The notes below the pieces were generated by a model. The model did no database searches. It was not told the DNA's origin and saw only the letters and a list, made by a program, of their open reading frames with translations. From positions 1 to 64,000 of the forward strand of contig BDIU01000110.1 of NCBI GenBank assembly GCA_002118135.1: a stretch of 64,000 nucleotides of DNA, in the 5' to 3' direction. The stretch is from Trebouxia sp. TZW2008 (Eukaryota > Chlorophyta > Trebouxiophyceae > Trebouxiales > Trebouxiaceae). Shown piece after piece: positions 325-61,652 of this stretch; the stretch's first letter is position 1; each line of letters opens with the position of its first letter. Both the position numbers and the translations under genes were made by a program.

Positions 325-400
325 ACAATGGAGTGTGGGTGCCTTCACAAGTCAACTTCACCAGCTTAGCCACTCCCACTGCTGTTGGCTAGACTGCATC
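325..400 (+). repeat. 5'-edge copy of M3 exon 457-559
   Basis: An AG acceptor followed by about 70 bases closely matching the start of the real exon at 457 (GACAATGGAG then TGGGTGCCTTCACAAG). The copy reads DNGVWVPSQVNFTSLATP and then hits a stop. It lies in the intron upstream of the real exon. It has no matching donor, so it is probably a decayed duplication. Confidence 0.8.
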
Positions 401-456
401 ACTCACATGAACACATTATTGTTTGTTAGTGATTCACAAATGAATGATGGACGCAG

Positions 457-3400
457 GACAATGGAGAGTGGGTGCCTTCACAAGCCAACTTCACCAGCTT
501 AGCCACTCCCAACGCCATTGGCTCTGGCAAGACTGCCCTCATGACCCTCCTCCATGAAGGTAACTTGTTGCCGCATCTTCTACACTTCTGCATGTGCTAT
601 GCCATCTGGCCTCAAGCACTCATCATACTTTGCGATGGCTGACCTTGTGTCTCTAGACAGATGCTGCTTTCCTCTGCATGAATCATTGGCCTTCACGACC
701 CTCCTCCATAAGGTAATCTCTTGCAAATGATGCAAGCACTTTTGCTTATGTCTGCTGCTGCATGCAACTTGTCCACTCTCTGTGGCATGATAAGGAGGCG
801 CGCTGCCACAGTGAGGTCTCTACTGGCCTGCTCAGAACAACTTCTGGCATGCAAACAATACTGGCATGCCCAAGTTGACTGTCCATCATGAAGGAGAATG
901 TAGGAGAGCATTTTGGCAAATGCCGTTGGAGAGGGCAGATACACTTGACACATCCTTTACACTTCTGCATGTACTGTGGCATCTGGCCTCAAGCCCTCAG
1001 CATACTTTGCAATGGCCGGCTTTGTTTGTCTGGACAGATGCTGCTTTTTTCAAGGATGCTTTGCAAAGTGAAGGTTTTGCTGCAGGACATACTTTGTGAC
1101 GGCTGACTTTGTGTGTCTACACAGATGCTGCTGTCCTTTGCATGGATGCTTCGCACAGTGAAGCTTCTGCTGCATGATGCATGTGCAAGGGTAGCTGCAG
1201 ATGTGGGTTGGGCGTCAATGAGCTCGGTCATTTTTCTGCACCAAGAAATGTGTCAAATGCAATGCAAGCTTCTTCAAACAGGTTGTGGCACACGCAACAA
1301 TTAATCTCTGCAGCAATATGTACCTGGGAAGGCATGAGATGTCCAGTGACTGTTCTTCACAGGGTTTGATGCTCTTGCGTTTTTGCTGGCTGACAGCTGC
1401 ATAAAGGCAGCTTTCTGCTGATCAGAACAATACGGTCATTGCTACTTGCCTCTTTCTAATGCTGAATGAGGGGGCCACAGAAATATTAACAGATCAAAAC
1501 CCGTTTACTTGACAAATTGACAAAAGAAAGTTTTCTCAACTCAACAGCAAATCATCTGCAGGTGGCCATGCAGCGCACTTTGCCAACATAGACCAGGGGA
1601 GCCCCATGTTCAGCCAGGAGCGCGCCCCCACCAGCGTGGCCTATGCCGAGAACCAGTCCATGTTCCTGGACTCTTTCATTGATGATGCTGCCTGGAAAGC
1701 CCGCTATGCCCTCTCCAGGTATGCTGTCATGCTTCTCAAGGCCATATGTATATCTGCCATGCACCAATTCAGTAACAGTCCCTACAAACACGCACAGAAC
1801 AAGCCTGCCTGGCGAGACAAGACTTGGGGCTGAACACACCTAGCACATGCGCCAGATGTCATGTAGACGCACGATGATGATCGCTGTTGCATCAGCAGAT
1901 GCAAGAGGGCCATTGAGGCAATGCGTCCCTAGACTTGGTATTGATGCTGTCATTTTACTCTTGCCTAGCTGTGCATTACGTCACAACATTCTTCATGCTT
2001 TGCTGCCAGTGATGTGTTGCAGGGAGGGCAAGAAGGACCCCTGTGAGCTGGTCGAGGCCGGCTTTGAGGCAACCCACCCTACTCAGTGCTCATGCTGTCT
2101 TTGCCCTCTTGTCTGACTGTGTAGTGTGTTGTGGTATTTCTTTGCTTCATTTCCTGTGACCTGTTGCCAGGTGGTGATTCCTTGAATGCCTGTTCAGAGG
2201 GCCATTGAGGCGACTCACACCTAACCCAGTATTCACGGTATCTCCCCCCCTCATCTCTGGCTGTGTACAGTGTCACAGCACCTGTCTTTCTTCACTTGCT
2301 GCTGTGCCTGGCTTTGAGGGCAACGCGGTCCAGTGTGCAGCATGCTGGCTGTGTATCATGTCACAGCATCTCTTTTGCTTCAGCTCAATTTTGATGTTGC
2401 AGGGATGGCAAGGTGATCCCCTGGGAGCTGGTCAAGCGGGGCATTGAGGCAACTCATCCCTATTCAGTGTTCATGGTGCGCAGCATGCTGGCTGTGCCCT
2501 TCTTTGAGAAGGCCTTGTACGAAATGCCAGAGGAGCAGGTCACCCCTGATGCAGTCACTGCTTTGGCTGATTCCATAGAGAAAGACGTAGAGGGAGGTTT
2601 GGCTGGCAGGTCAGCCCAAGCTACTGCAACACTGACCTTTGCTTTCAAGCTACTGCAGCATTGACATTTGCTTCTGACGATTGCATATCTGTACAGCACT
2701 TGCCAGGACAACAATGCATGAAGCGTTTACTGCTCTGGCCGACTTGATAGAAAAGGATGTGGAAGATGGTTTGGCGCGCAGGTCAGCGCAAACTGTTGCA
2801 GATTGAGTTGTGCTTCATTCTTTTGGCAAAGCATTCAAGGATGTGCTCCTGATCTTGTGGCAAATGCCATGACATAGATCCTGTATCAGGGCATCATCCG
2901 CTATTGCTGCAGGGCAAACGTTTGTGCATTTGTTTGGGTACTGCCGTCTTATTCTCCTGAATCTGCCCTGCGTTGTCAAATAGGTTTGCTTCTTTATCTT
3001 TCAAGACCCTTGACCATGCTGAGCTTTCTGGCAACTTTGCTTGTGTATGCCAGCCAGGATGCTGCTGATGCCTTTGTTGTATCAAGGGCACCAAGCTGCC
3101 TTGACAGAGCTTGTATGCCAAGAGTATTGGGGCAATTGAGGGCAGCTGCCTGTCATTCAAGCATTTGCATGAATCTGCATGATGAATCTGACGTCATGAG
3201 TTTGGACCAACGCGCCTGTCTGCAGGCCTTTGATGTCGGTGCCCCATATGCTGGCAGATGAGTCCAGCACCAGCAGTCATGCCTGCGCACTAGCAAAGGA
3301 GAGCATGCATGTTGCTGTCCCTGCCAATGTAGGCTTGGGAGCCTCAAGCCTTTTGAAACAGTCTGTATGCTGATTGCGAGTCATGTGTGAGCCACAACGC

Positions 3401-5335
3401 TGCCTGTTATTCATGCATAATCGGTGCATTTCACTATGATGTCCTCAAGTTCTCACAAGAATACATGTGTGCAGGCCTTTGATGTCAGCGCCCCACATCC
3501 TGGCAGATGAGTCCAGCTGCTACTGCCTTAGCTTGCGTTGCAGAGATGAGCGTGCAGGTTGCTGTTCCTGCCAATGCAGGATTGGGAGCCTCAGGCCTTT
3601 TGGCACAGTCTGTATGCTGACCATCAGTGAGGCGTAGCCAACAAAAGTGCCCTTGTTTGCGCTTGATGAACTATTCTGGTCATGACGTCAGCATATCCCA
3701 GAGCGCTGTATACATGCAGGCCTTTGATGTCAGTCCCTCACATCCTGGCAGATGAGTCCAGCGCTTACTACCATGCCTATGTGTTGGCAGAGATGAGCGT
3801 GCATCAGACACGAGCACACTTCAAGAACAAATACGGCGTACTAGTTGACAATGACCAGGTTTGCCACCATGAACATTGCATTGCTAAAACACAGCACTCG
3901 CTTTCACAATTTTGTATTTGCCAGTCATCAGCACACAGGTCAACCGCACTGGAGCAAACAGTCAGCACAGGGAAAAAGTGCAAAGATAGGGTCTGTTCTG
4001 CATGTGGCAGATGCACACCAGCTACTTTCAGGTCACTGTGTTTGTTGCTGCACGTGCATACAAGTCCATGGGCACTATATCTGTTCAGTAGCCTGACCAG
4101 GCAGTCCTATCTCTGTGCAATAGTCCACGATGCCTTCAAGCAGCAGGCTAGCACAATCAGGCACCATTGTCCAGTGATGTGTGTTATGTTGCTTATGGCA
4201 ATTGCGCTATGTGAGGATAATGATCTAAGAGTCACATTACAGGAGCCTGTACATTCATTCATTTTCATTCTAAACATGTGCTAGACAGGCTCAGCAAGCC
4301 CAGCTAGTTACGTACTGGAGCAACCAACTGTTTCCAATCATTCTGGTCCTGTGCTATTCTAAACCATTTGTATTGAGCATGAAGAAAGGCGAGGTCCTTG
4401 TCAACGGTCGTCTGCCAAGTGTCTCTGGGTGGGCTCCCAGCCTCTGTACCTGCAGGTGGGCAAACACTTAGAGAAGGCGTATTGGCGGCCTGGCAATGGG
4501 GCAGCCTTTCTGAACCTGGAGCAGGGCCTCACAGGGCAGCCCCTCTCAGCAGGGTGATGAGACCTCACAAGCAAGACACGTGAATGATGACAGTCATGAT
4601 GGTATAGGTGGGCAAAGATCTAGAGGAGGCGTATTGGCGGCCTGGCAATGGGGCAGCTTTCCTGGACCTAGTACAGGGCCTTACGGGGCAGCCCCTCTCA
4701 GCAGACGCCTGGGTCAGCAAATTGCAGGAGAGCGTCAGCAGCGTGGTGCAACAAGAAGAGCAAGAGTACAAGGAATCTGTACAAAAGGGCCCAAAGCTCA
4801 AGTCAGGTTGAGCTTCTTGCTGAGTCAGCACTCACAGTCCTTGTGATGCAATCTGATGCTTGGATGCAGCATTTTGTTGGCAGGTGCTCTGCATGGTACT
4901 TCATGATCATGAATCTGCTGTTGATGCTACAAAACCTTTTACATGCCAGCACCATGCATTGTGCCGACGCCATATAGCTGACTGAGATTGAGAGCGATTG
5001 GCTCCCATTGCCTGATCAAGCACTTAAAGATGGCAATATCTTTTGCCGAGCCACATCAGATGGTATGTGTGGGGTTGGCTTCATCAAAACTTTGGAATCA
5101 TACCCATCTGTGATCTTCTTCAGCAAGCAACCACAAGGCACTGTCAATGGCAGAGAAGTTGGATTGCAAAGAATGTTTATCGTATGCAGGGCAACCAGCA
5201 GACCTTGGAATGCACGTGATTTTGGTACATGGCGATGAGGTGATTGCTGATTCAGAACAATCAGGAAGTATACAAGCTGCGACCGCGCAGTACAAACAGT
5301 GGCTGAACAAGACATGGCCAGCTGACAAGAAATGA
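457..5335 (+). CDS. M3-family zinc oligopeptidase (5' partial)
   Basis: Exons read by phase: 457-559, 1562-1718, 2403-2609, 3720-3858, 4608-4806, 5190-5335 (TGA). Earlier exons lie outside the window. The zinc motif HEGGH is formed across the first intron: exon 457-559 ends LLHE plus one base of Gly, and exon 1562 continues GHAAHFANID. Downstream come AENQSMF, which supplies the expected third zinc ligand Glu, and DESSAYYHAYVLAEM, matching the substrate-binding Tyr/His region of M3 peptidases (thimet oligopeptidase / PepF clan MA). A C-terminal stretch reads LVHGDEVIADSE. M3 enzymes cleave short peptides; no targeting signal can be judged because the N-terminus is missing. All visible exon junctions keep phase, so the gene looks functional. 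Its introns hold many copies of its own exon edges (separate entries). Confidence 0.85.
690..722 (+). repeat. 3'-edge copy of M3 exon 457-559
   Basis: The end of the real exon (CCCTCATGACCCTCCTCCATGAAG then gtaact) recurs as ttcacgaccctcctccat, then aag and gtaatc, so both coding end and donor are copied downstream. A longer related intron block (cttctgcatgt..tggcatctggcctcaag) recurs at about 587-650 and 960-1010, so the duplicated unit included intron sequence. Confidence 0.65.
2022..2350 (+). repeat. Decayed 5'-edge copies of M3 exon 2403-2609
   Basis: At about 2022-2085 gttgcag is followed by a copy of the exon start (reads GKKDPCELVEAGFEATHP against the real GKVIPWELVKRGIEATHP). A second, more worn copy spans about 2190-2225 (agagggccattgaggcgac) and a third about 2300-2350 (tttgagggcaac ... 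gcagcatgctggctgtg). The intact exon is the last in the series. Confidence 0.75.
2710..2800 (+). repeat. 3'-edge copy of M3 exon 2403-2609
   Basis: About 90 bases repeating the exon end: tttactgctctggccgac, a diverged middle, then ggtttggcgcgcaggtcagc, matching the real ggtttggctggcaggtcagc including the donor and intron start. It lies directly downstream of the real donor at 2609. Confidence 0.8.
3223..3625 (+). repeat. Two 5'-edge copies of M3 exon 3720-3858
   Basis: tgcag plus GCCTTTGATGTC occurs at about 3225, 3475 and at the real exon (3720), an interval of about 250 bp. The two upstream copies share the following intron-like tail (tgggagcctca, then ccttttg, then cagtctgtatgctga), so the repeat unit is larger than the exon edge. 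Both lose the coding frame after DESS-like codons. Confidence 0.85.
4455..4560 (+). repeat. 5'-edge copy of M3 exon 4608-4806
   Basis: tgcag then GTGGGCAAACACTTAGAGAA through CCCCTCTCAGCAG is almost identical to the real exon start at 4608 (GTGGGCAAAGATCTAGAGGA onwards). It ends in TGA after about 100 bases. The acceptor is intact, so it is a strong decoy exon candidate. Confidence 0.85.
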
Positions 5336-5352
5336 TGCCAAGGAGTGTACGC

Positions 5353-6974: not shown

Positions 6975-9900
6975 ATGACCGGTGATCCGGCGTTTTTGAG
7001 TGCCCCGCCCGTGGAACGGAACCCAGTGGGACCCTTGGTAACTGGCGAGGAGGCATTGCTCTCCAAAGCCGATCCTGGCTCTTCCTCCCCCTCACAAGGT
7101 GATTTTGCAAGTAAGCCGCTCCAAGATGCAAGCTTGCAACCTCATAAGCTGAGTATGCAGCATCCTGACAGGCCTGCAGCATCTGCTAATCATGGTCTGC
7201 AGAACCTGGCTTGTCACAAAAGCTTCGAGGCATCTTCGGTGGCAATGCTGGTTCATTCCTTGATGGAGTTCTCACAACATGTGCATCACAGGTAAGCGCT
7301 TTGATAGCAGTTGCTCTTGCTGTATTCAAGTGCAGCGCTTCAGACTGTGCTTGCACATGCCATTGTCTCATCAAACACACTTGGCGAGCTGTGTGTTTGC
7401 AGTGCACACAACAGGTGAACATATATATATTCACTGCATGTGATCACTGTATGTAACAGTATCTACAATTGTCTACTCAATTGTATATAATCACTGCTAC
7501 CCAGTTGCCGTCAGCATCCTGCAAAGAGAGGGTTCTGTAGGCAACCAGGTTTGGCTTGCTGCAGGTTGGTCAGATCATGTTGACTTTGCCAAATGCCATG
7601 GCCAAGACTGGCTTGATTGCTGGCCTGCTGCTGGCTGTCAGCAGTGCCTGCATGTCTCTATGGACCATGTACATGCTCATCACCCTGTATCTAGAGAGGA
7701 AGCGCCGCTTGGTGAGCCTTTTTGACACAGCATCAATGCCCCATTCATTCACTGTTGACATCACAATATACACTGACCTTGCAGTCCACATTTGCTCAAA
7801 TGAAATGCAAACTACATTGGCGGTCACAATACCTCCCTCTAATTGTGGTGCATCAACAGTTGGTTGGTGGAAACGACGAACAGCCTGCTTGAATGGAGTT
7901 CACGCAATTTGTACCTGCTGTGAAGGCGCAGGAGCGTCTGTTGTGCATGCACATTGCACTCGCTGCAGATGCTGTGAAGCAGCAATAGCATCTGTTACTC
8001 ATGCAGATGCAGAAAGGCTTGTAATGTAATGCAAAGGGCAAGCGTGCCATCATCACTCATACCATGATTGATACGCAGCTTGCGCGTGGCCATGTTACGC
8101 CAATGTGCATTGTGCACGAAGGAAATGATGTGCAGCAGCAACAGCATCTGTTACCCATGCTGATTCAGAAAGGCTTTGTTATATAATGCAAATGCCCAAG
8201 CGTGCCATCATCACCCAGCATCATGAAGTCATTGGCAGCCTGCTAGGCGTGTGGCGATGTTTGCCCATGCACATTGCACACAAGGCAAACAAGGTGAAGG
8301 ACTAACAGCATCTGTTGCCCACGCAGATCCACAAAGGCTTGTGGTCTGATGCAAACGGCAAGCGTGCAATCATCACCCAGTACCATGAAGTCATTGGCAG
8401 CCTGCTGGGCATGTTGGCATGAATTGCCCATACACATCGCACACAAGCCACTTACTGTAACATCAACAGCGTCCATTGCTCATGCAGATCCAGAAAGGCT
8501 TGTGGTATGATGCAAATGGCAAGCGTGCAATCATCACCCAGTATCATGAAGTCATTGGCAGCTTGCTGGGCATGTGGGCGCAGATCATTGTTCAGCTGGT
8601 CATCATCATCTCCCTTGTTGGCACTTCTTTTGCCCAGATTGTGGCCTGTGCCTCTGATGTCTACTACTATGACTCAAGCAAGAGCAAGCGAGAGTGGTGA
8701 GTCAAGCTGGTCTGCACATCTTTTGCCCAGATTGTGGCCTGTGTTCCTGATACGCGCTACTATGACTCAAGCAAGAGCAAGCAAGAGTGGTGAGCCAAGT
8801 CAGCAGTGTGCTTTCAGACAAGTCAGTAGACTGCTTGTGAGCTCAGCTTCATGCATGCTGATGCTTGTGGCCATACGCGCTGCTGTTGTTGACACTGCTG
8901 ACTGCTCTGCGACAGGAGAGTCAGACTTGGTCATGCCATGGTCAAAACTTCAGCAAGAATTCTCGCAAGAAGTCTATTGTGTGTCAACTTGCCAGCCACC
9001 AGCCTGCTTTGGCTATCTTGCGTCCACTCAACATCAAACAACGCAATATCGTGTCAAACTGGAGTTTGGTAGTGGTATGCCAATTTATGTGGACGGTGCT
9101 TTCCAAAGGTGCATGCATTTGCAGCACCCTGATGTGAGGAGGCGTTCAGTCATGATTATGCCGCTGTCCACCCTGCATCACTTATGCTTTGTCGATGTGG
9201 TATCCCTGTTTCCACAACAAATTCAATGTGCATACATTTGCAGGACATTGATATGGGGAGGTATTTCGATGATGGCTGTGCTGCTGCCCACGCTGCGCCA
9301 CTTCCGTGTTGTGAATGTGGTTGCCTTGATTGGCACTACCTACACCACCTGGTTCATTGTGGTCACTGCTGCTAAGCATGGCATGACTCCCGGCGCAGCC
9401 TCCAGGTAAAGCTTTGCATCAATCATTTGCCATTTTTAGATGTTGTCTCTGAGAAACAAAACGCACCTACAAAACCTGGTTCATTGCAGCCACTGCTGTC
9501 AAGCATGGCATGACTCCTGGCACAGCCTCCAGGTGGGCTGCCTTGATCAAACTTACAAAAGCTTCACAAGACTTCCAAAGGCGTTTTAGCAACCAATTGC
9601 ACTTTGGGTTGATTTGACCGCGTCACACCCTAAGCTACTTTTTGTTGCTATTGAAGAAGCAGAAATACTCGCAACTTCTTCTGCCACTAGGTTTTGCCAT
9701 GCTGAACTGCACATGCACTGAGCAAGCACGTGGCCTAACAGCTTGAGTCTCTTGTTGACTGCAGCGCAACATGTCCCTGTTCTCACGCCTGTGCAGCTTC
9801 TGCCCGAATGCAGCCACACAATCTGCAGCCAGCAAGAGCAGTGCAACTGAGATGGCAGACACTGTCAGTGCCATGTGGCAGTCAACATGTCAAATCACTG

Positions 9901-12900
9901 CTGCTATTGACTGGCCTGTGCAGCCACCTGTATGTCTTTTTCTCAGCCAGAACGAGGCTTTGCAGGTTATGTCAGCAATCAGGCTGACACTGCGTACAAA
10001 ACAACACTGCAGTAAGCGTGTAGTAAAGGCAGAAGGGATATGTCTGCAAGCAACGTGTGTGTCAAGCTCAAGGCAAGTTGTGTGCCAAGCACAAAGACAG
10101 AGCGTGTGTTTGCAAGCAAATTCTGTGCTAAGCTCAGAGGCATGACGTGTGTCTGCAAGCAACCTGTGTGTCATGCACAAAGGCACGATGCGTACCTGCC
10201 AGCAGCTTGTGCGTGAAGCACAAAGTTGTGGTGTGTGTGCAGGGGCCCTCTGAACCTGCAGAACTTTTATGTGGGAGCATCAGTGCTGTTCAGCGCCTTT
10301 GGAGGGCATGCCATGGCCCTGTAAGCCCCCCTGACCTTAGTGCCTTCTGTGCCTTCTGCCTTACCTTTGCCTTTGCCTTGCCTTTGCCTTTGCCTCTGCC
10401 TTTGCCTTTCTGCCTTACTGCATAACGTCAGCTCAACATGCCACCAGTGTTGCTGCTTGCCTGCATGCATGCCCTGCTTGTGCTGTATTGTGTCACCTGC
10501 TGTGAGCCAGGACTTGAATATAAGCCAAGGTGTCAGCAGATGTCTTGATGTACTACAAGTTCTGCACATGGCTGCAAGCTTTGGCTGAAGTGCTAGGGCC
10601 TGTCACTACTGTGACTGATGATCAGTAGCAGTGCTTGTTGCATGAGCCAGCAAGTAGGCTTTGTGGATGCCGGGAACCCATGAACGCCATGCTTGTGATT
10701 GCTATGATACTAAGCCTGATTGCCAGTTGGATGTAGCGCCCGCTGGGGTTTCTGAAAACCTCAGTTCAACGCACAGGCAGCAACGTGACTGCATCTTCAA
10801 ATGCAAAATGCTATCAAATTTGCACGCTGTAGGCAGCTGCAAAAGCCGTCGCATGCATCAGCAATCTGACATATGACAATCAATCGGCTCATTTACAGAT
10901 ATTTACTGTCGTAGGGATTCCACAGGGGGTCACACAGGCAATGTCATGTCAACACAACACTTGTCTACTATACGCCTTTGGCAAGTTCTGCAAAGGAAGA
11001 CTGTATACATAAGCACATGCCAAGAATTACACTGTGATGTGGTTTGAGCAGTGACTGAGACTTCTGATGATGCAGGGAGATCATGGATGCCATGTGGGTG
11101 CCGGCAAAGTACAGCAAGGCGTACCTAGCCAGCTTCTTCTACATCTTTGTGCTCACCCTGCCCCACTCCATCTCAGTTCAGCTCGCCTACCCTGATGCCA
11201 ATCTCAAGAACGGTACAATCAACACATCCCAAGTTCAAGCACAGCTGCAGTTGCCTGTCATCAGAACGCCTTGCTTGAAAGGCGGGTGTGTCATGCTGCA
11301 ATCAGTGTCTTGTGACTTGCTGTCAGGGCACTTGTGCTTTGTTGGTGAGTGCCTTGCAACATTTGTATGCCATGTCAGGTGATCACAGCAGCATGTGTCG
11401 TATGATCATCCTGTGTGCAAAGTCAGCCCGGTTGTATGCTTTGGTCTCTGTATGCCAGGTCAGCATGTTTGGGCACCACAAAACTTCTAAGCATTGGCTG
11501 TGGGCGTGCAGGCAATGTGTACGGTGTGCTGCCCAAGACACGGGCTCGCAACGCCTCGATCATCATGATGCTCATGCACCAGCTAGTGGCCTTCTGCCTC
11601 TACAGTGCTCCCCTGTACTACATGTAAGCCTGCTGCCAAGGTGTCATTGCTAAGATTATATACAGTCTACCTCTGTTCTTGCATTGACATGCCGCTGGGC
11701 TTTCATACAAAGAGAGGCTTCAGAGACTGCAAATTTTGCAAACATGTGCTCAAGCAGGCTTTTTGCATGCCTTGCTAGTTGCTTGCCACTTTGCTTGTCA
11801 CTTGCTGCCGGATCCTTGCATCATGAAGCTCATGCACCAGCTGGCGGCCTTCTGCCTCTAGAGTGCTCTCCTGTACTATATGTAAGCCTGCTACCAAGAT
11901 TACCTTGCATGGTTTGCTGTTTCCTTGCTACTTGCTTGCCTGTTGCTGCTGGCTCTTGCACTCATGCACCAGCTAGTGGCCTCCTGCCTATACAGCGCAC
12001 CCCTGTTTTACATGTACCAAAGCCTCCTTGCATTCTTTGCATTCCTTGCTGCTTGCTGCTTGCTAGTTGTTGGTTGGGTGCTAGTTGCTGCGCGCCATCT
12101 GCAAGTTGCTTGCTACTTGCTTGCCTGTTGCTGCTGGCCCTTTGCACTTATCATCATCATGATGCTCATGCACCAGCTGGTTACCTTCTGTCTCTACAGT
12201 GCTCTCCTGTACCACATGTAAGCCTGCTGCCAGGGCCTCTTCTCAATCTTGACCAGTTCTGTCCTTTGAAATAAATATCGAGCTGCTGATTGTCCTTGTC
12301 GGCTTGCAAGCTGTCAAAGATGTATTCGGCAAGCACGGCTTTGCACCGTATGTACAATGCCAACAGCTGGTCAGTCTGCTTATACAGATGCAAAATGCAT
12401 TCCTTGTGAGTCACTAGTTATTTTTGGATGGCGTGCCAGGCCTGGATAGGAGTCACAGACCTGCATAGTAATGTTGCATCGACACTGGTGTGCTGGTGTA
12501 GGTGGGAGAAGCTACTGCATGTACACAGCAAGTCCCTTTGGTTGGAATCCCACTACGAGTTCCTGTTGGTGAGCCTTGTGCTTTGCTGCTGAGTGAATGT
12601 TTGAAGGCAGCGTGAATCTGCCTTGCATAGGCATCAGTGAGTTCTCTGCAAGTCTTCTTCACCTTGATGCTGTCTAAGTGTGCTCAAACATAACAACAAG
12701 TTGCTGTCCCACAACAACTTGGTACATGAGTCTCGTGTAATGAGTTGCCTGCTGCTGTCACGTGCTCCTACTGTCACCTGCTGGGGGGTGCTTCTATGCC
12801 CCACTTTCGTTCCTCCAGTAGCTAGGAAGAACTGAGCTGGTGTACTTGCTGCTGCAGCTCTCTTCATTTGGTTTCTGGCTATTGCATTCCCTTTCTACGG

Positions 12901-20219: not shown

Positions 20220-23200
20220 ATGGCGTCACGGGTTGATGACAGGCTGCGGAAGCTCGCGGATGCTAGTTCAGAACCTATCTTGGCGGTGCATGTCGAGCCA
20301 ACTGAAGACATGGATGCTGAGAGAGCGCGGGCGTCATTCGACACCGAAGAGTTGGCTATTGAGCTGAATGGCAGCAGGGCTTTGCTTGAAAAGAAGTATG
20401 TGTCCAGACTCACTGGTTGGCTTCATGCACTGCATGGTGGGGGAAATACATATTGATATCGGGATGCGACATACTGCAGGGCAGAGCTGGCTCAGATTCT
20501 GGCTGAAAGCGAGTGGGGAGACAAGAGCAAGCGCTACTTCTTGAGCAGGGAAGAAGAGCATATTGGTGGCCTCAGAGCGGCCACAGCAATCTGGTGAGTA
20601 GCTGCATATGTCACACTACCGATGCATTATTGAACACTGCAGGCTGTAGAAGTCTTGATGTATACCATGCAGGGACATGGTCAGACAGAAGAAGATCAGT
20701 ATGGAGGAGGGCACACTGATGCGCACCTTACTGTTTATGCCGGGAGGCCTGGAGCTGCACATAGGGGTAAGCTTTACAACCACCTTCCCTGTCGGCGCTG
20801 CTATTCAGTAGCATTGCATAGCTGACAGTCTGTAGCACATTTGTACACAGCACGCAATAATGCAGCTCAGGCTATCACTGCTGCTGCAATCCTGCTGCGT
20901 ATGTATGGTAAATCATTGCATGTGGCAATCCCTACAGCCAAACAATCCTGCTCAGCACTGTGTGCAAGGCTTATTTTGCACGTCACCTTGCTCAAGATCC
21001 AAGAACATGATCGGCTGTTGAGATGGCATCGAAACATGCACTTTGATTTCTTATGTCATCATGCTGTCCCTATCAAACCCACTTCTTCTGCTGCTCACCT
21101 GTGAGTCAATGTTGACCTTGCTGCAGATGTACTTATAGCCCTGCTATCACAAGGCTCTTCGCTTTTGGCCAAAAAGCATTCATCTAGGAGCTGACATGGA
21201 CACTGACGCAGATGTTCATCCCAGCCCTGATGCCACAAGGCTACACAGAACAGCAGGCCAAGTGGCTACTCATAACCCAGAAGCTTAATTCTCAACCATG
21301 CTTTGTCAGTCATAACGCTCTTTCTGCAAAACACATGATCCCCTGCGAATTGACATTGTCACTGCTGCAGATGTTCATTCCAGCCCTGATGTCACAAGGC
21401 TCACCAGAGCAGCAAGCCAAGTGGCTACCAATGGCTCAGAAGCTGGAGATCATCGGCACGTACGCTCAGACAGAGATTGGTCACGGCACCTTTGTGCGGG
21501 GTCTAGAGACCACTGCTACCTACGACCCAGAGACTGAGCACTTCATCATTCACTCACCCACCCTCACCAGCACCAAGTGGTGGCCTGGAGGTGAGGAAAT
21601 ATTTGCAATAACACTTGCATTGTCGTTTCAAAATCCAGCACTTGTGCTCATGGTTGCATTAGGGCTGGTCAAGACTTCAGGACCCGTCATTGTGATGGCA
21701 CAGCTGTTGACACAGCGCCAGGATCACAGCATGCATGTCACTCACGCATGAGGCCTGGGCAAGACATTTACTTGAATGATGCAGCGGCTCTTGTCGAATG
21801 ACTTTTGATATAGCATGTAGCCAGACATATGTAAACAGGCTCAGAGGGGCACACAGCCATGCAAGGGCATGGGCATCCGGCCATGAGTGTCAGATGCTTA
21901 CATGAGCCCATTTGTGTATATTGCCTCAGGCCAGGGCAAGACATCAACTCACGTCATTTTGATGGTACTCCTTTTCACCAAGGCTCAAGACAATGACATG
22001 CACGCCTTCATAATTTTCCTAGACATGCCAAGATGCGTAAAGCCTCCTTTTGCTTGCTTGAGGCCCGGGCAAGACATCAACCCACGTCATTCTATGGACA
22101 CGTGTCTTTACCAGGGCTCAATACTACGACATGCACGGTTTTGTTACTTGGAATGTCTTTCTTAGACATGTCAAATTGCGTAAAGCCTCCTTTGCTTGCT
22201 TCAGGCCTGGGCAAGACGTCAACCCGCGTCATTCTGATGGCACGCCAACTCGCCAGGGCTCAAGCCCACAACATGCACGCTTTCGTCATTTGGAATATCT
22301 TTCTTAGACATGCCAAATTGCATAAAGCACCTTTGCTTGCTTCAGGCCTAGGCAAGACGTCTACCCACGTCATTCTGATGGCACGCCTTTTCACTAAGGG
22401 CGTGGACTATGGCATGCATGCCTTCATCACCCCTATTCGCGACCTGGAGACCCACAAGCCTCTGCCAGGTGTCACAATCGGCGACATTGGCCCCAAGTTT
22501 GGCTACAATGGCGTGGACAATGGGTTCCTGCGCTTTGAATATGTCAAACTACGTGAGTAATCCTTGAGCCCACATGCTGCTTTTCTAGTGTGATTTCCTG
22601 CAGGTGACTTGCACTGCTGCAAGAATATGCAGCAATACTGACACAGGCATTTGGCAAAATATATTTCGACGTAAACTGCTTGAAGCAACATGACATCTTT
22701 TGCATTAGACCTTGAAGCAGTGCATGCTTGCTATGGACTGCCTACGGGCTTGCGCTGCATCTACTTAAATCAGGCGAGTAGTGAGCTTTTGCATGCACCT
22801 GGCCAGCAACATCGTTTTGGCTCTAGATTGTTGCACCATGACCAAGCTGGCCTGGCTAGACAAATATGGACAAATGTGCCACACACATATGGCACATGCG
22901 CTAGCAAGCTTGAGCATCATTATCATCAAGCTTGCTAGCGCACGTGCCATATTGTTGTTCAGCTGAGTCAGCTGATCTGATGTGGTGCTCTGCAGCAAGG
23001 GATCACATGATGATGCGGTATGCCAACATCTCCCCCGAGGGGAACTATACTCCACCTCCACCAGCTAATGCCAAGGCTGCCTATGCCACCATGGTGTACG
23101 TGCGTGCCACCATTGTAGAAGACGCTGGGTGGGTTCTGGCCAGAGCCACAACCATTGCGGTATGCAGCAACAGCATCTAGGCAAATCCTGTAGCATCACA

Positions 23201-34750: not shown

Positions 34751-34845
<95 letters not shown>

Positions 34846-44005: not shown

Positions 44006-47000
44006 TTGTTCAGAAGCCAGCCCAAGCTTCGTATCAGAAGCCGAAACATCGTTAGTCAAGCAGCTGCTGCCCCCTCGCAGCTCACGCAAGGGTCGTTGCA
44101 ACGTAATTTGACGAAACGTATCGTCTATACTGACTTACCTGCCCTTGAGCCATCAGGTCAACCTGCTGCACCGGCCTTTGCCAATCCGCTCAGGGGTCGG
44201 CCAGCGCCTCTTGGAGCGTCTCTGCTGCTGGACGAGGTGAGCTGAAATGACTGCAACTTAGCATGATAGAGCGTCATGGCCCTTGTAATTGATAGCTTGC
44301 AACTGAACTGTCATCTGAACCCTCAACAGAAGCATTGCCTCAGTGAGGGGCAAGCTGCAAGCAGTCAGCTGCAAGGACAGCATAAGCTTTGCTGATGCCA
44401 AAGATCATGTCAAATTGCAGCGGAAGAATACTTGCGCTATGCTGTTTCAGCTTGCTCATGAGCCCACTAGGCTATGCAGCTTTGAATTTGCGCCTGGACT
44501 ACCATGACTGCAACCTTCCAGTATCTGAATGGCAGAATGCATACAGGATTCATTCTTCATGTCAATGATGCCTTTTTCTGAGCTCCATGAGGTGTGCAGG
44601 TTGCTGTGAACTTTGCGTTGTACTCAGCGGGTGCTACAGGAGTGATTCTGTGTCTATTCACAGAAGCTGACCTTCAGAACGGCAAGGTGTCATTTGAAGT
44701 GCAGCTTAGTGCAAGGCATAACAAGACAGGGGATGTTTGGCATGTTGCCCTACCTCAGCTTGATGTCAATCTGCTTTACGGTAAGTTCTTGGCAAGCTAT
44801 GCATAAAGCTTTGCTCTTGCCATGCGAAGCATTACAGTCCAAGTCCATGCATGTGACTGGTGCCAATCTGCTTTATTGTGGGTGGCCTGCCATGATACAC
44901 GCGAAATTGTTGCTCTTGCAATGTCAAGCACCACAGGCATGCCACATGCATTGGACTGACGCCTGCAGCCTGTGCATGTCTATAGGGTTCAGAGTAATTG
45001 GTGAGCATGAAGAGGAGGAGGTCATTGATCATTGTACTATGGACACATTTGACTCAATGCAGAGCGCAGAGGAAAGTGTGACCATTATCAATCCTGGCCA
45101 GCGTTTCAATGCGGTAGGTCCTGTAACAGCTGCAACATGCCACTGACATCAACGCCTTCCCGGGCTTGATGTTGTCAGAAATGGTTCCTGACTGCTGATG
45201 TGCTGCAGTCAACAGTGGTGACGGATCCCTATGCAAGGTCAATCGTAGGAAGGAGGCAGTATGGTCAGCTGGCAAAGGTACAGATCTGCTTTCCTTGCCG
45301 TTATTGTTGCATTGCATGGCAAAATGCCATGTCAGCATGCTTGCATCAGCTGCTGACACTGGCACCAACCCATCAAACATGCTGCATTGCCATTCAGCTT
45401 CATAGGTCTGCATATCATTAGCGGTGCCATCTCAAGAAGACAAGTGTTTGTTGCAACTGTTGGCAAGGCTGTGACGGAGAGAAACAACTGCTTTAGACAG
45501 TTCACTTGAGCAGCAATGCATGCCGCAAGTTGCCTCAAATCACAAGCACTAGAGCACTTGCATGTATCCGTTTGTCACAGCCACGCTTATTCCAGGCAGC
45601 CTTGACTCCAGCACGTGTTGCACAGCTTGACATACCAGGTCTCAACAGCAATCATGCCTCTTCTGCATGCACACAGCTGTAATCTGTTTGTAATCTGACC
45701 ACCATCCCTTTGCCATGCAAGGTCCTGCCTATATATCTCAAGCCTGCTGATGGCCCCCTGCATGCATATGCCTGCTTGCAATATGCTCTGCTATCAGCAT
45801 GCCAACCTGAAAAAGTGTATATTGTGTCAAGCAGGACCTGGATTATGAGCATAGCTCTGTTCTGGGCATCGCCAACACATGGCCTCAGACAGCAGCCCCT
45901 GTTCCCTCTCATCAAGATTGGTTCGACTGGGAAGGGGACAGGCCATTGCATATACCCCTGGACCAGCTTGTTATATACGAGCTGCATGTGCGAGGTTTCA
46001 CACAACATCCATCTGCAAAGGCCAAAGCACCTGGTGAGACCCTGTCGCAGTCAAAAGATCACAGAAGCAGGCATCACAGACTGCTGCATGACAAATGACT
46101 CACTTTCTGGACCAGCTTCTGATTTACATGCTGCATGTGCGTGTCTTCACACAGCATACATCTGCAAAGGCCACAGCACCTGGTGACACCCTGTGCCGCC
46201 AGAAGTTCCAAGACTGCAGAGGGGAGCATCACTGACTGCTGCATAGCAAATGGCATACTGCCCCCCTATACTGCGTGATTGCCAAGCTGCACACAGAAGG
46301 CAAGATGCTGCATATAACGCATTTGCCACTGCCACCTCCCCTATGAGGCCGCATCATCTTGATCAGCTGACACAGCAAAGAAGTATGCTCAGTGCTCACA
46401 AAATACTTCGTAACATCTACATATGCTGCACGTGGGTTTTCATAGTCAACCAGACCCGACACGGCCACCTCCCTAAAGTGCATCTCTTTGACAGCAGACA
46501 AATGTGCTTAAAGGCTGAAATATTATGTGCTGCCCGCATACATTGCATGCGAAGTTTGACAGACAAGACTCATCAGACAACGGCTTCTCCTCTATGAGGC
46601 TGCATCAGGCAATATGCTTTGGCGCACACTTGAGTGCTCTAGCATCAGGCACCACAATGCTGCATCAGCCCAGGCACACTGGCTGCAGATGGCTGCACGC
46701 ACCTGGGCCTGGTGGAAAAGCTTGACTACCTGCAAGCCATATGCTATGCAACAGGCATCACTGCATGGTTGAACACTTTGTTGTGAGGCACAAAAATGCT
46801 GCATCAGTCCAGGCACACTGGCTGCAGATGGCTGCAGGTACATACCTGGGCCTGGTTGAGAAGCTGGACTACCTGCAAGCCCTGGGTGTCAATGCTATTG
46901 AGCTGCTGCCTGTCCAGGAGTTCAATGAGCTGGAGTACTACCAGGTAACATCCTTGCTGCATATGCTTGCTCATGTCGTGTACCCCATAAGAGACTGCAT

Positions 47001-50000: not shown

Positions 50001-53000
50001 GAAAATGGAAAGGGGGCAGATCGCCTCCACACTCCATCAACTTTGTGACTGCCCATGATGGCTTCAGCCTGGCTGACCTGTGTGCCTACAATGAGAAGCA
50101 CAATGCTGCCAATGGCGAGAACAACAGGTGCAAACATGTTGGCAGGCCTTGCCTGAGATGCAGACTGATGTCTGCAACAAGTAGACCAAGCAACAGTACT
50201 GCACATCTTTCTTGTCTCCCTGGCTGTGATGGCCTTGGGCCAAAGTTCCTGCATACATATAGGGTGTGAAAGCCTGGAAGGACAAGAGCCTTGACAGAAG
50301 CTACACTTTAATAAAACCTGCGTGTACACAGGGATTGTGAGAGCAATGACCTGTGATGGAACTGTGTAGCATCTTGAAAAGACAATGGCCTTGACAGATC
50401 CTGTACTGACTTCAGAGCTGGATGTGCATAGGGACGGTGAGAGCAACAATCTGAGCTGGAACTGTGGCAAGGAGGGAGAGACTGACAGTCAGTCAGTGCA
50501 GCGGCTGCGCTCCCGCCAGACACGCAACTTGGCAGCTGCCCTCATGCTGTCGCATGGCACCCCCATGATCCAAATGGGCGATGAGTATGGTCACACCAAG
50601 GTATTGCTTTACACCTGCGCCAAAGCGCTGATGATTAACTCTGCTTAATCAAGATCGTAGCCGTGGAGTACAGCATGGCAATTGCCATCATGCTGTTTTG
50701 TGAACCTTCCTGAATCAGATGGGCAATGGGCAGCTGCTTCTGTCTTCTGTGCACCGCACGCCATACAACCAAACTCTGTACTTCACGCAACACATACACT
50801 GATACTCAAGCCCTCAGCCCAGTCTGATGGTACCGCTCAGCAGGTCTACGGACTAGTGTAGCGCGCATGCCCATTTGTAATAGGGCGTAGTTGTCCTTGC
50901 ATGCATGCAAGTGATGCTGGGCACGCTGCCACAAGCAGACGTGCTGCTGATCACTGCCATTTGAAATCCTGTCGTATGCTCAAAATGCTTCTTCATGCAT
51001 TGCACTGTCACAAACACCTTCTTCAGCTTTGTCCTTCAGGTGCGTTTTGGCTGCATGCATCTCCTATTTTGCTCAGTGCATATCGCACCTGCTTGTAGCA
51101 ACACAGATTGGCATGCAGGGTGGAAACAATAACACCTACTGCCATGACAGTGAGCTGAACTGGTTCAACTGGGATGAAGCCACTAAGGACGAGACGGGCT
51201 ACGCCCGCTTCTTCCGCCACTTGATCAATCTCAGGTCAGCTACTATAACGGCAGCAAAGCTGGGCGCACCAAGATTTGCACTGTGCTTCGCATTGATCCT
51301 CACAAGAAAATTATGTTGCTGAAGACAACAGGCAATGTATGAGTAGTTCTTTGGGGTTTGTTTGTGCCTCTGTGGCATCATCAATCTTTCAAAGATGCCT
51401 GCTTGATGAGGCGGCTCAGACATTGGCAAGTCCAAACGACAGCCTAGCTTTGCATGTTGTCGCTGTTCTCACCATAAATGCTTGGCAGCAAGTGCTGCTG
51501 AGCTGCACAATCTAGACATAAGACTTGGCTCCCTAGCTGCTTTCAAACACAGAGGCTGCAGCTGAAAAACTGTCAGCCTCAAATTTCTCTTTCTTTCCTG
51601 TCTGGTTTCATGGCTGCACCTCACAGGCTTCTGCTGAGGCACCTGGTGACTGAACTTTCTTTTATGTCTCTGCCTGACTCCATCTTCCTTGCAGGTCTAT
51701 GCTCTAGCATCCAGCTCAAGAATGTCGACAGACCATTTGACCATTTCAGACAAAGACTGGCTTTGTTCAAAACAATGCAGGAAGCAACGGCCTGAGCTGC
51801 GGCGGCGCAGCTTCATGGACAATGGAGCCATGTCGTGGCATGGCCTGACGCCAAACGAGGCCGACTGGTCAGAGGAGGCCCGTCTGGTGGCCTTCACTGT
51901 GAGCAGTCCCAGTCAGGGAGGGCTGTACTGCGCCTTCAACACCAGCCACAAGGTCCAGACCCTGCAACTGCCCCACTGGCCAGGGCTGGTGTGGCAGCCC
52001 CTCATGGACACTGGCAAGGTCAGTGCTGGCAATGCTGAGAATTGAGAAACTATCATGGTGTTGTTAAGACGGCCAAGACATGGTTGCACATCTGATTTGA
52101 CTCGAGTGCAGCAGCGTGGTGTTTGCATACTGGCAAAGCCACTGTGATTGCCTATCTCACTTTTGGTGGTCATTGCTTCCTTGGAACCAAAAACAGAAAC
52201 CAAAAACAGACGCAAGTAAGATGCACAACGTGTGTGCTATCATTGAGCTATATTGTGTGTTGACATTGAAGCCATTGTTGCCTAAGTCAGAGCAAAATTT
52301 TGTCTTTGCTTATCATCACATGGCATCAAACCAGCTTAATCTCATGAGAGGCTGGGAGTGGCAGCCCAAGCAAAATGCCTCCAGAAGAAGGTCGTGGGCT
52401 TTGATCAGCCCATGCTTGTGCTTACACATTTCACAGCAAACAGTGTGCATTATGCTACAGATTTTGTGCTGTCTGCAGGCTGCCTCTTGTGATCTTCCAT
52501 TGTGATTAGAGGCCGATGACAACCATTTCAAGTAGTCTCAATTTTAGCCCACGGAATAATAATAATAATAATTTGAACAGTAACTGCAGTGCCTAAATTT
52601 TATTTTGCTGTCTGCAGGATGCTCCATATGATTTTCTAGAGGCTGATGACCAGCTGAGCGCAGAGCAGGTAGAGACTGTCAGGTCACAAATGAGCATGTG
52701 GAGCTCTGAGGGCTGCTACCCGCTTCTGCCCTACTCCAGCATCATCCTTGAGGCTGTTCCAGACCAGCACTCGCCAAGTGGCAGACCAAGGACTCCACCT
52801 CAGAGCAGGTCTGTCCATTTGCAAACATCATCTCAGGTCTTAGGCACATTGATGTGTTGTGCACAGGACAGCATGCTAGCGGCTGCTATCCATTTCTGCC
52901 CTTTTTGTGTATCATTCTTGAGGGCTGTGCTGCCTATGCGCAACATGATTATTTCGGAGCGTTTCACCATGTCATAGACTGCCTGGACCTCATGGACAAA

Positions 53001-58400: not shown

Positions 58401-61400
58401 ATCTTGCATCAGGCCTGCAGCAACAGGTCAACGTGTCTTTACATTTTGCCTCTGCCTTATGTCTGAGATATTTTGGCCAATTTTGATGGCAGTGACGCTG
58501 CTGCAAACTGCTCGAGGGTCTCCAATGCACGGCATGACGGTAATCCAGATTGCCAAGTGCATTTCACAAAGCATTTTCCTCTCATGAAGCTGATTCATGT
58601 GTTTAAGGATACACAGATGCCTGCAAATGCTGAAATTCATCTGTTTCAGGAATGAAGATGCAAGAAATATGACACTCTCATTTGCAGGCTTGAGAATTGT
58701 GCAGAAAACGCCTACACCAATGGCAAGGATGGAATGGAAGATATTGAAAAGTGGCCAGCGGATCTGATTGAAGGCGAGCCAGATGGGTTATGGCTGTCTA
58801 GTTTCATTCCACAAAAGTTCCTGCTAAGGGTGCGTCAATGCTGAAAGCTGCTTCATGCCCAAAGCTGCCAGGACCTGATTGCTGTCAAGTTCTTTGTCTT
58901 GTCCATTGCGTTTAGCTCTGCTCATGACAAACGCATTTCTGCTGTCTCATGACAACCTTTGAACAGGCATGCTTCACAAGCACCAGGCATAGTCTGCTGC
59001 TTCCTGACATTTCTTGCACAGCAGCACTGTACAAATGCCACACATGACTTTTCGTTTCACGGCACTGTTTGTGCAGGAGCATTGCACAAAGCCTCTCAGG
59101 AATTTCTGCCTCTTCATGAGGCTTTAAGCATTACAGATTTACACAGGGCAAGTGAAATATTGCTTGCTTTGCAATTGCAGACATCTCAGACCTGTGCAGC
59201 AGGCTTTGTGCCTCAGCCTGACCGCACCTGCTCTTCTCTAAATCCTGGTCTTGTCCAGTATGCCAAATTTGCAAACGCCACGTATTCCTGCTGTTTCCGG
59301 ACTGTGTTTGCACAGAAGCACCGCACCAGCGCCGCGCCCATGTTTTGAGTTTCATGAGTCTATTTGCGTAAATTTGCTGCAAACGGCAGCGTGGTGACTA
59401 AGCTTTTGATGCAAATGCAGACATCCCAGATCTTTGCAGCAGGCTTTGTGCATCTGTTTGACATGATCCATGACTTGCTGTCAAGGGCAACACTGCCAAC
59501 AGTTACAAACATCAAGACAAGGATAGAGCGCCTGGAAAGAATGGGCGGGAGTTCAGGAGAGGTTGGATATCCAAGTGCTGTCATAGAGTATCTGCGTGAG
59601 GGCGGCAGGTAATGACACATTTTCTTGGATTTAGTACCATGTATTGTCCTGACATCTGCAAGCTGACGGCAGAAAACAGACATTACTCTACTGAGTTTGA
59701 CACAAAGCATGGCGCCCAAAACCTTTGCGAGACAAAGTGTGCTTTGTTTGGCTTGAGGAGGTGACTTGCTAATGGCAAATGTCAGGGCCAAAGGCTGTTG
59801 TGTCAAATGCCATGATTGGCTCAAGAAACAGCGACATTTCCTGTGGGCCATTGACACATATTCAACGCCTTCAAAATTTGAAGCTCTGTTACGTATCAGA
59901 GTCACTGGCTCCCTATCCTGGACTGCTAGACTGATTCACAGACAAACTTCATGTCACTCAGATCAACAATGTGATGAATGGTTTGTTGTTCGACCATCTT
60001 CACAGATATCACTGGATATGTTGATTGAAACATTTAGATTTTTGGGCAAAATCATGCTGATGGAGGCAGGTGTCGTTTTGACTGGGCATGAGTGATCAGA
60101 AACTTGTGGCATTGAAGATGGCATCAAAGTCTGGAATGCTTGAAGTGCTGACCCTGTGAATTGCCAAAATGGCCCAGATCTTGTCCTCCTCCTGAAACCA
60201 AGGCCTGTTCGCCAGGCCAAATTGAGGCTGTAGAACTTCTAAATTTGCACTTCTTGGGTGCCTGTGTCCGCTTGTCATCATGGAACCAATTTTGTGAAAG
60301 TCCTAATCATTGTGGGCATGCAGGGTGGAGTTTGCATTGGATGCTGTTCTTGGGCGGTCCATGGAAGAAAACGAAATCACAGGTAGCTCCTTTCTCACTG
60401 CATTGACTCTTTGACAACAGATTCTGCTGAGACATGACAAGCACACGTGAGGTGACTGCTTGACAGATGCTGGAACAGGCTTTAGCTTTCAACACAGGCG
60501 CCTGCTTGCCTTGCCAGAGCATTGCTTCAGAACTCCTTTCAAGTCATTGATTGCGACGCTTTTCAAGCTTCCTTGCACCAGCTCATGATTTCTGTTCTTG
60601 GTTTCAACAGTCACTACAGCTGTTACTCCAATCAGTGCTCACGTTACAGAGTCTTGTGCCTCCCATACAGCTCTGCTCCATGTCCTGCTGACATGGTCTT
60701 CTCAGGCTTGCATGCATCTTTGATAAAAGTATTGGTTGTCAGGACATTAATCTTCTCTTCCCATGCAATCTTTATCAGCAAATATTGTTTCTTCATCCTG
60801 ACACAGACCTGACTCCCGGCCCATCATTTGCAATTTTGATTCGCAAGCATGTTACAGCAACTCAGCTTTTCAAGTGAGAGCGCAATCAACTGACTTTGCC
60901 CAGGTTTTGGTCCATTTTGCATTCTCAGTCCTGCTCACTGAAAATGGGCCCACATGGAGCTCTCATCGAATTGCCTCAACAAAGCAATCGCTTGACCTCG
61001 CCTCGGCAACCCAACTTTTCTCACTTTGCTTGCAGGCAATGGCTCTTTCAATGACTCTGGCATGCAAGATGGCATATCTGAACTATCAATGCGTGCAAAG
61101 AAAATTGAGTAGGCTTTCATACTTGGGCACTTGTGCAATGATACACTGGATCTTTCTCACATTGCTTGCAGGCAATAGCTCTTTCAACGGCTCCGGCATG
61201 CAAGACGAAAACGTGGATCTGCCAGCATGCGCAAACACTGATGAGTGTGCTTTTGTACCGAGGCATTTGTGCAATGATGTTCTTGATCTTTCCCACATTG
61301 CTTACAGGCGCGGCTTTCAAGATGAAATCATGGATCTGCAAGCGTGTGCAAACGATGATGAGCATGCTTTTGTGCTGCCGCACTTGTGCAAAGATGGACT

Positions 61401-61652
61401 TGAACTTTTTTCACATGGCTTGCAGGTGATGGCTCTTTCAACGTCGGCAGCTTTCAAGATGAAATCATGGATATGCCAGCGTGTGCAAACGATGATGAGT
61501 ATGCTTTTGTACTGCGGCACTTGTGCAATGACGGTTACATGCCCTCGGGTCCATATCTAGACGAGGAGCTTGATAGCTGTGATTGGAGCAGAGCAAACAC
61601 TAAGAAAGTCACAAACAACATGCCACCTGGTGACGGTGGCCAGTATGACTGA
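55448..61652 (+). CDS. GNAT-like plus ankyrin-repeat protein with Cys-rich C-domain
   Basis: Exons: 55448-56045, 56264-56407, 56785-57064, 57440-57631, (an unresolved junction), 58069-58279, 58688-58829, 59421-59608, 60324-60382, 61426-61652. Residues about 200-250 read LLYIREVKIKPALRKKGLAC, then LAVKQLL, an acetyltransferase (GNAT) acetyl-CoA loop pattern, followed by SWRPAGFRVID. Ankyrin units follow (AIQYAVIAGQ, then WLIANGADINQQDSAGNTAL, then HFAAYSGQPKLVKQLL). Then comes NGCTCYECIGGFLSPKMAFR, a Cys-rich block. This architecture recalls a family of ankyrin proteins best known from fungi; I know of no biochemical role. Phase between 57631 and 58069 is inconsistent, so one exon is missing or there is a frameshift. 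The last exon is preceded by a ladder of copies. Confidence 0.72.
59170..59230 (+). repeat. 5'-edge copy of GNAT-ankyrin exon 59421-59608
   Basis: ttgcag then ACATCTCAGACCTGTGCAGC, then AGGCTTTGTG copies atgcag then ACATCCCAGATCTTTGCAGC, then AGGCTTTGTG, 240 bp upstream of the real exon. Confidence 0.88.
61036..61420 (+). repeat. Ladder of three 5'-edge copies of the GNAT-ankyrin terminal exon
   Basis: Copies start at about 61036, 61172 and 61308, then the real exon at 61426 (spacing 136, 136, 118 bp). The protein pattern is QDE(I/N)(M/V)DL.ACAN.DE.AFV..HLC. The 61172 copy stays in the same reading frame as the real exon when spliced from the same donor (GNSSFNGSGMQDENVDLPAC), so it could be an alternative exon. 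The 61308 copy lacks 18 bases and is out of frame. Confidence 0.92.

Follow-up and report, generated by a model that had tools for sequence, protein, structure and literature searches.

The predicted introns of Trebouxia sp. TZW2008, as they appear in a 64,000-nt stretch of its draft genome (contig BDIU01000110.1, positions 1 to 64,000; hereafter the window), contain many partial copies of the edges of the exons that flank them. We think it likely, with a probability of about two in three, that these copies stem from frequent short (about 100-200 bp) local tandem duplications, those that cross an exon-intron junction being spliced out. The window holds 32 exon-edge copies, 20 on the acceptor side and 12 on the donor side. 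At least one lies in each of the seven gene regions (M3, AUX-like, acyl-CoA oxidase (ACX), FN3K, RING, isoamylase and GNAT-ankyrin) for which the initial annotation, made from the sequence alone, had reported about 25 copies of exon ends in flanking introns. Its further suggestion, that the copies recur in unrelated genes of both strands and at the level of the genome, also held: direct local repeats are present in 10 of the 10 other contigs sampled, and both plus- and minus-strand genes carry copies. The two minus-strand models at 13398-16918 and 18257-19201 contain no exon-edge copy.

The analysed DNA comprised the window and 20 kb from each of the 10 other contigs, 264 kb in total, out of a 68.5 Mb draft in 527 contigs with a G+C content of about 0.495; an eleventh contig chosen for sampling proved too short. 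Self-comparison of the window at a cut-off of E<=1e-3 returned 51 repeat pairs, all direct and all less than 600 bp apart, with no inverted pair and no pair more than 4 kb apart. Over the 264 kb, pairs at most 1.5 kb apart amounted to 369 direct (361 after trimming of double counts from overlapping window chunks) versus 1 inverted, while Markov-resampled (shuffled) sequence yielded a single direct pair and no inverted one. Without a limit on distance, inverted pairs numbered 27, in 4 of 9 contigs, and only 1 fell within 1 kb. The L014 region alone accounted for 22 of the 27, at longer range. Direct pairs per 20 kb varied from 9 to 65 across 9 sampled regions (the L002-L019 series). Most copies are 70-90% identical, with 19 pairs of at least 36 bp reaching 90%, and the exon families are each tied to their own exon. 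The nearest copy lies at a median distance of 157 bp in exon families and of 141 bp in intron-only ones; distances of 120-180 bp form a peak in the former (52/107), whereas the distribution of the latter is flatter (16/66). Such spacing is close to nucleosome length.

Gene models, and with them all splice sites, were predicted by a self-trained gene finder written here, which converged on CAG/GTAAG-like donors and TGCAG/G acceptors. All results below refer either to the full set of 29 gene models with 278 predicted introns or to a cleaned set of 11 genes (112 exons with a mean length of 147 bp, and 101 introns), from which false exons had been dropped by hand. A rule-based cleaning of all 29 models removed 52 exons, the rule also discarding exons shorter than 25 bp. 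Neighbouring genes were sometimes fused, M3 and AUX for example forming one model. The ACX model recovers its 2fon homologue at E 1.7e-169 and the isoamylase model its 4j7r homologue at E 3.3e-271; other models with homologues in the PDB are phosphoglucomutase (PGM, 7vss), FN3K (6oid), a SKI2-like helicase (7qdr), Argonaute (AGO, 8d6j) and a flavodiiron protein (FDP, 6h0c). These seven cleaned genes match over much of their length, gene g20 matches mainly in its C-terminal part, a PDB search with the M3 gene gave no match, and the set also includes AUX and g6. Left out of the cleaned set were the ends of some genes (g20 and g21) and low-support exons such as isoamylase 45063-45113. The names M3, AUX, RING and GNAT-ankyrin are those of the initial annotation; identity was tested here for ACX, isoamylase and FN3K. 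In several of the PDB-matched genes the finder had inserted extra exons that are missing from the homologues and are themselves copies of the edge of a neighbouring exon.

In the cleaned genes, 34 of the 112 exons are represented by a copy in a neighbouring intron. As many as 76 of the 81 exon-copy pairs reach the exon edge (within 8 bp), and 5 of 81 are confined to the exon interior. The comparison of junction-anchored with exon-interior copies proposed in the initial annotation thus came out in favour of the edges, but geometry and selection predict the same outcome. Copies are more common on the acceptor (upstream) side than on the donor (downstream) side: 49 versus 29 exons in all models (p=0.031), 28 versus 14 in the cleaned genes (p=0.044) and 26 versus 5 among families with at least two copies (p=0.0002). 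Both smaller sets, the models outside the cleaned exons (22 versus 14, p=0.24) and the window copies alone (20 versus 12, p=0.22), point in the same direction, neither settling the matter alone. Plus-strand genes have 21 acceptor and 13 donor exons (137 introns), and minus-strand genes 28 and 16 (141 introns). The excess reflects either a better tolerance of the splicing machinery for spare acceptors or their more frequent formation. Examples are PGM, in which a real exon is preceded by four degenerate copies of its head, and the SKI2-like gene, in which six copies precede one exon.

Detectable local duplicates make up 18% of the predicted intron sequence and exon-including families 14%, a family being counted as exon-containing when any member overlaps an exon by 15 bp, so that some intron flank is counted in the latter figure. 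Of the 278 predicted introns, 80 contain 25 bp or more of an exon-containing family, and these have a median length of 685 bp (n=80), compared with 415 bp for the introns without (n=198). The longer copy-bearing introns fit, without proving, the earlier proposal that introns grow here by duplication across junctions; the copies themselves do look like products of local tandem duplication across junctions.

We next consider how the copies end, since the initial annotation had each of them start or end exactly at a splice site. In this wording it was not confirmed, and anchoring at splice sites is only partly right. In 144 exon-edge pairs the match extends a median of 22 bp beyond the junction into the intron; 26% end within 5 bp of it and 31% run on for more than 100 bp. 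With median exon overlaps of 67.5 and 55 bp, the copies mostly represent partial exons. In the top-identity class the match does end within 20 bp of the junction in 12 of 14 pairs, and identity across donor junctions drops from about 0.84 to 0.62. Nor was a preference for junctions over intron interiors supported. In the cleaned genes, repeats cover a fraction of 0.28 at intron positions more than 100 bp from a junction, against 0.21 at exon edges and 0.17 over the 20 intron bases nearest the junction, so that junctions are no hot spots relative to introns. A first profile had shown enrichment at junctions (0.24-0.29 beside them versus about 0.15 inside introns), which proved an artefact, as the gene finder had called many copies as exons, and the order was reversed after homology cleaning. 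We also discarded the equation of match identity with age, high identity often meaning that only the exon half was aligned, and an end-anchored flank test is biased by the points at which BLAST stops.

The intron bases next to the junction are informative about the duplicated unit. Over the first 12 of them, acceptor copies have a mean identity of 0.82 to the true junction (26 families), compared with 0.66-0.73 for intron bases 3-12 in a permuted-flank control. That these bases are common to the copies and the true junction indicates that the duplicated unit crossed an existing junction. Further out, at least one copy shares the intron flank (identity of at least 0.80 at 13-50 bp) in 9 of the 26 families, and flank identity at 13-30 bp is only 0.64 despite high exon identity (n=26). 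Isolated pairs retain residual similarity in the gap in 17 and 20 of 55 cases at p<=0.1, where 5.3 are expected. Exons average 147 bp, close to the unit size of about 150 bp, so that any unit reaching into an exon without being contained in it has to include an edge. Because neither intron-side copy is constrained, the intron half of a copy erodes faster. The apparent anchoring at splice sites is created by this geometry together with differential decay.

The exon-derived halves evolve as expected of one constrained and one free copy: when exons are aligned with their intron copies, mismatch frequencies at first, second and third codon positions are 0.148, 0.127 and 0.219 (about 4,650 sites each). 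Decoy splice sites have an intact AG in 68 of 97 cases and an intact GT in 26 of 34, rates similar to the conservation of the exon bases beside them. Of 138 copy rows, a frameshift gap occurs in 47 and a stop in 29, while 79 are free of both; these 79 average only 22-25 codons, and one row has no comparable site. In acceptor families with at least two copies, the copies are closer to the exon than to each other in 22 of 26 families; the same holds for 24 of 26 over the first 12 bp of intron and for only 16 of 26 at 13-50 bp. As a class, judging by these substitution patterns, the copies evolve neutrally and are eroding, presumably non-coding duplicates, with a few exceptions that look constrained.

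Taken together, these results suggest the following sequence of events. Short local tandem duplications would arise often within genes. One lying wholly within an exon would alter the protein and be removed by selection, whereas one across an exon edge would leave a spare edge inside the intron, where it could be spliced out and tolerated. The intron half of the pair would then decay on both sides and the exon half on one only, so that the recognisable remnant would come to resemble a fragment cut at the splice site. Enzymatic routes that we considered are paired nicks or break fill-in with end joining, slippage, and unequal exchange in existing arrays.

We compared this scheme with simulations in which tandem duplications fell uniformly on the gene structures predicted here, protein changes were rejected, sequences decayed by substitution and indels, and detection was the same as for the real data. 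The duplication rate was set by hand. At a constant rate the model was rejected as sufficient: 104 of 235 families contained an exon, against 82 of 117 observed in all genes (0.70; 42 of 53 in the cleaned genes), and young copies retained an intron flank identity of 0.81 against 0.64 observed. A 4-fold exon bias alone (young flank still 0.82) and conversion between all copies, which neither raised the exon fraction nor removed the flanks, were likewise rejected as sufficient. Once the constant-rate version had failed, a pause in recent duplications was introduced; four settings were tried, and figures for the best of the four are quoted. With it, the exon-identity classes are filled at 0.12, 0.34, 0.39 and 0.15 (observed 0.10, 0.26, 0.43 and 0.21), flank identity reaches 0.67 for the 0.82-0.88 class, where 0.65 was observed, and 0.73 for the top class, where the observed value is 0.64, and all 9 of 9 top-identity matches stop no more than 20 bp from the junction (observed 12 of 14). 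Exon edges with copies number 78 per run, as observed (84, 72 and 68 in the other settings), which is no test, the rate having been set by hand. What the pause represents could be either a true slowdown or the collapse of young copies by the assembly. Random tandem duplication with selection and such a pause reproduces, in the best of the four settings, much of the observed pattern.

Several observations weigh against random duplication and selection as the full account. The best pause setting yields 77 exon-containing families out of 151 per run (0.51), too few for the 82 of 117 observed (p=0.0004; the simulated 154/302 used in testing are the per-run means, 77:74 rounded, times two). Over the four settings the exon fraction is 0.43-0.60, the odds differ 1.6- to 3.0-fold and p ranges from 0.06 to 5e-7; for the cleaned genes, it ranges from 0.0075 to 1e-6. 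The other three settings reach a fraction of short ends of only 0.57, 0.67 and 0.60 (n of 7, 9 and 5), and a uniform model predicts no difference between acceptors and donors. Young isolated pairs (identity of at least 85%) show little residual gap homology (1 and 5 of 17 at p<=0.1), the most similar copies in some arrays are not the nearest ones, and clustering of mismatches is seen in 38 of 99 pairs at p<=0.2, compared with 20 of 133 simulated (p=6e-5). The probable picture is therefore one of mostly indiscriminate local tandem duplication filtered by selection, with an about two-fold residual exon bias outside the model.

That residual bias could mean that duplication itself is directed to exon edges, above all to 3' splice sites, through transcription, splicing or nucleosome placement, the acceptor region and exon head being copied back into the intron in arrays with periods of about 120-190 bp. 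We regard this as improbable, with some real weight behind it. The excess of exon families over every simulated setting, the acceptor excess, strongest in the multi-copy families, the 120-180 bp peak of exon families beside the flatter spacing of intron-only ones and the abrupt ends of the top-identity matches all favour such a process. Once false exons are removed, however, repeat cover is no higher beside junctions than inside introns, the simulated 4-fold bias leaves more young flank than is observed, the acceptor excess is not significant outside the cleaned exons, and under one setting the exon excess for all genes reaches only p=0.06 (p=0.0075 in the cleaned genes). A difference in spacing is moreover expected anyway, longer units crossing junctions more often. 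The more specific version, in which the 3' splice region and exon head are recopied into the upstream intron in nucleosome-sized steps and so build arrays of spare acceptors, is doubtful. If splice-site-linked duplication were true, intron growth in this lineage would be driven by exons and not by transposons.

The clustering of mismatches hints instead at gene conversion, by which old tandem duplicates would be refreshed from the constrained exon, keeping the exon half and splice signal and losing the intron half. The greater likeness of some non-adjacent copies and the high exon identity without flank identity agree with this. Against it, a longest-run test for conversion found no excess at p<=0.2 (20 of 99, 19.8 expected), clustered mismatches could also result from constraint that varies locally within exons, and conversion among all copies failed in simulation as described, so that we consider it quite unlikely as the source of the pattern. 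We attach very little probability to the idea that the copies are alternative exons or splice decoys maintained by selection. More than half of the copy rows are free of stops and frameshift gaps, if over short lengths, and a few copies differ from the exon almost only at third codon positions: in the SKI2-like gene, L014:15660-15782 has 9 of 9 differences from exon L014:16036-16276 at such positions and looks to be under constraint, as an alternative exon or an annotation puzzle. In aggregate, by contrast, first and second codon positions change freely, frameshift gaps and stops occur in 47 and 29 of the 138 rows, splice dinucleotides decay at about the local rate, and the FN3K proteins of three relatives (one a Trebouxia) contain no second or extra copy of the exon. 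Two near-copies of one exon in one gene, L008:16789-16908 and L008:17403-17522 (92%, 8 of 9 differences at third positions), likely represent a functional exon duplication. Finally, the genome is a draft in 527 contigs, in which repeats or alleles might have been collapsed or misplaced, but an assembly artefact is hardly credible, as the copies are mostly 70-90% identical, direct, local, derived from one exon edge and found in every other contig sampled; a draft would more readily hide young copies than invent old ones.

The preferred reading, tandem duplication filtered by splicing and selection, bears on several broader issues. Most intron DNA has no recognisable source; with 18% of intron sequence in local duplicates and 14% in exon-including families, intron growth could here be dated and followed. 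The genome is also a natural test of how the spliceosome chooses the right acceptor among up to six upstream near-copies of one exon. Since our gene finder called copies as exons, published gene models of such algae may hold spurious repeated segments.

The copies in the window are listed in the table, along with the exons from which they derive.

Table. Exon-edge copies in the 64,000-nt window, with source exons, percentage identity and supporting evidence (TRF, tandem-repeat detection).
Feature	Position	Strand	Identity and evidence
M3 exon with copies on both sides	457..559	+	upstream copy 312-390 89% identical to 445-523; downstream copy 689-724 84%
Copy of head of exon 2403-2609 with 3' splice region, upstream intron	1965..2097	+	77%
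Copies of head of exon 3720-3858, upstream intron	3217..3556	+	74-90%
Copy of exon 4456-4553, directly downstream	4606..4704	+	88%
AUX-like array, period about 156 bp: 3' splice region and head of exon 8488-8696	7946..8579	+	TRF 161 bp x 2.8; last unit overlaps the exon
Copy of tail of exon 8488-8696 with donor GT, downstream intron	8714..8799	+	87%; alignment
Copy of tail of exon 9244-9405 with donor GT	9465..9534	+	87%; alignment
Three downstream copies of predicted exon 11512-11627	11819..12235	+	89-92%
Copies of 3' splice region and head of ACX exon 21371-21590	21119..21285	+	83-85%; alignment; exon order confirmed against 2fon
Array, period about 133 bp: head of ACX exon 22346-22552, upstream intron	21651..22246	+	TRF 142 bp x 2.7
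Array, period about 146 bp: head of ACX exon 27152-27338	26530..27089	+	TRF 148 bp x 3.3; false exons called by gene finder; single copy in 2fon homologue
Copy of tail of exon 27152-27338, downstream intron	27376..27422	+	81%
Copy of head of FN3K exon 35281-35490	35119..35175	+	84%
Copy of FN3K exon 35962-36123 with GC donor and 16 bp of intron	36182..36347	+	87%; alignment
Copy of head of RING exon 38743-39023	39070..39175	-	83%
Copy of tail of RING exon 40660-41081	40444..40590	-	70%
Copy of 3' splice region and head of isoamylase exon 46828-46944	46647..46738	+	88%; exon confirmed against 4j7r
Copy of head of isoamylase exon 50416-50600	50275..50366	+	72%; 4j7r comparison
Copy of predicted exon 59181-59247, GNAT-ankyrin region	59410..59462	+	85%; alignment

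The FN3K intron that follows exon 35962-36123 begins with a GC donor (GCAAGT) at 36124-36125, and the downstream copy has the same GC donor. Judged by its relatives, this exon probably starts further upstream than 35962. The FN3K protein of the window is 75% identical to a protein of Trebouxia sp. C0010, the best match bearing a species name among the best 120 of 2084, and 82% identical to a further match that is not from a named species. A predicted FN3K intron also contains a hexamer array (TTGCTG, 22 copies, 90% match) at 34731-34863. A long predicted intron holds about four units with a 136 bp period at 61013-61534; the inventory of exon-edge copies in the window revealed no exon matching them. 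At 31348-32906, where the gene finder placed no minus-strand model, minus-strand frames encode a cysteine-rich stretch, which we take to be chitin-binding-like, and a GFDLDYE motif, presumably like that of family 18 chitinases.

It remains to compare the copies with known systems. Introner elements are single sequence families dispersed over many introns of different genes; a search of the window at E<=1e-3 found no dispersed repeat, and the exon families belong each to one exon. In a minisatellite or satellite, one unit is repeated in an array and its copies resemble each other most, whereas the exon part of the copies is here closer to the exon than to sister copies in 22 of 26 acceptor families. 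Mutually exclusive or tandemly duplicated exons would be whole, in frame and constrained; the copies are partial and in aggregate neutral, the exceptions noted above aside. In 2009, Gao and Lynch reportedly described internal gene duplication, segments within eukaryotic genes being said to be commonly duplicated. The term is cited for segments holding entire introns in the part of PMC4974935 available to us. Our copies share with it the same-strand tandem arrangement within one gene (369 direct pairs versus 1 inverted) and differ in being mostly partial exon edges that decay as intron, in 80 of 278 introns. Break repair by fill-in at the ends and end joining yields small tandem duplications, according to the portion of PMC8355091 consulted; the likeness, compared by product only, lies in the local tandem product. 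In Chlamydomonas and Volvox, the sections seen of PMC3887541 describe tandem repeats whose density is highest in introns and whose frequency rises towards intron-exon junctions, and which resemble ours as tandem repeats near the ends of green-algal introns; the abundant intron motif there is, however, a GT/AC dinucleotide and not a copy of an exon edge of about 150 bp.

The initial annotation knew of no described process of this kind. This holds in part. A literature search, largely of titles and abstract openings with few subscription papers, found no description of exon-edge copies throughout a genome's introns, and in a term search of the Trebouxia A48 paper (PMC12712428, partial text) 'tandem' was absent and 'intron' appeared a single time, in the title of a reference. 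On the other hand, tandem genomic duplication within genes is a described route of intron gain, known as the Rogers model (PMC3443670, PMC4974935; for near intron pairs in Drosophila, PMC2891723; each as far as the text was accessible). In that model a duplicated exonic AGGT provides two copies that become the ends of a new intron (PMC3443670, PMC4974935). As far as these excerpts go, that model and our copies both involve a tandem duplication in a gene that is rendered harmless by splicing and leaves an exon-derived copy inside an intron. In Trebouxia, however, acceptor copies and the true junction have their first 12 intron bases largely in common, so that the copies do not fit new introns from a duplicated AGGT: the unit crosses an existing junction and carries intron sequence with the old splice signal, and repeated rounds give arrays. 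What differs from the tandem duplication already described is, on the sequence comparisons made here, that existing junctions are crossed and existing introns would thereby be lengthened.

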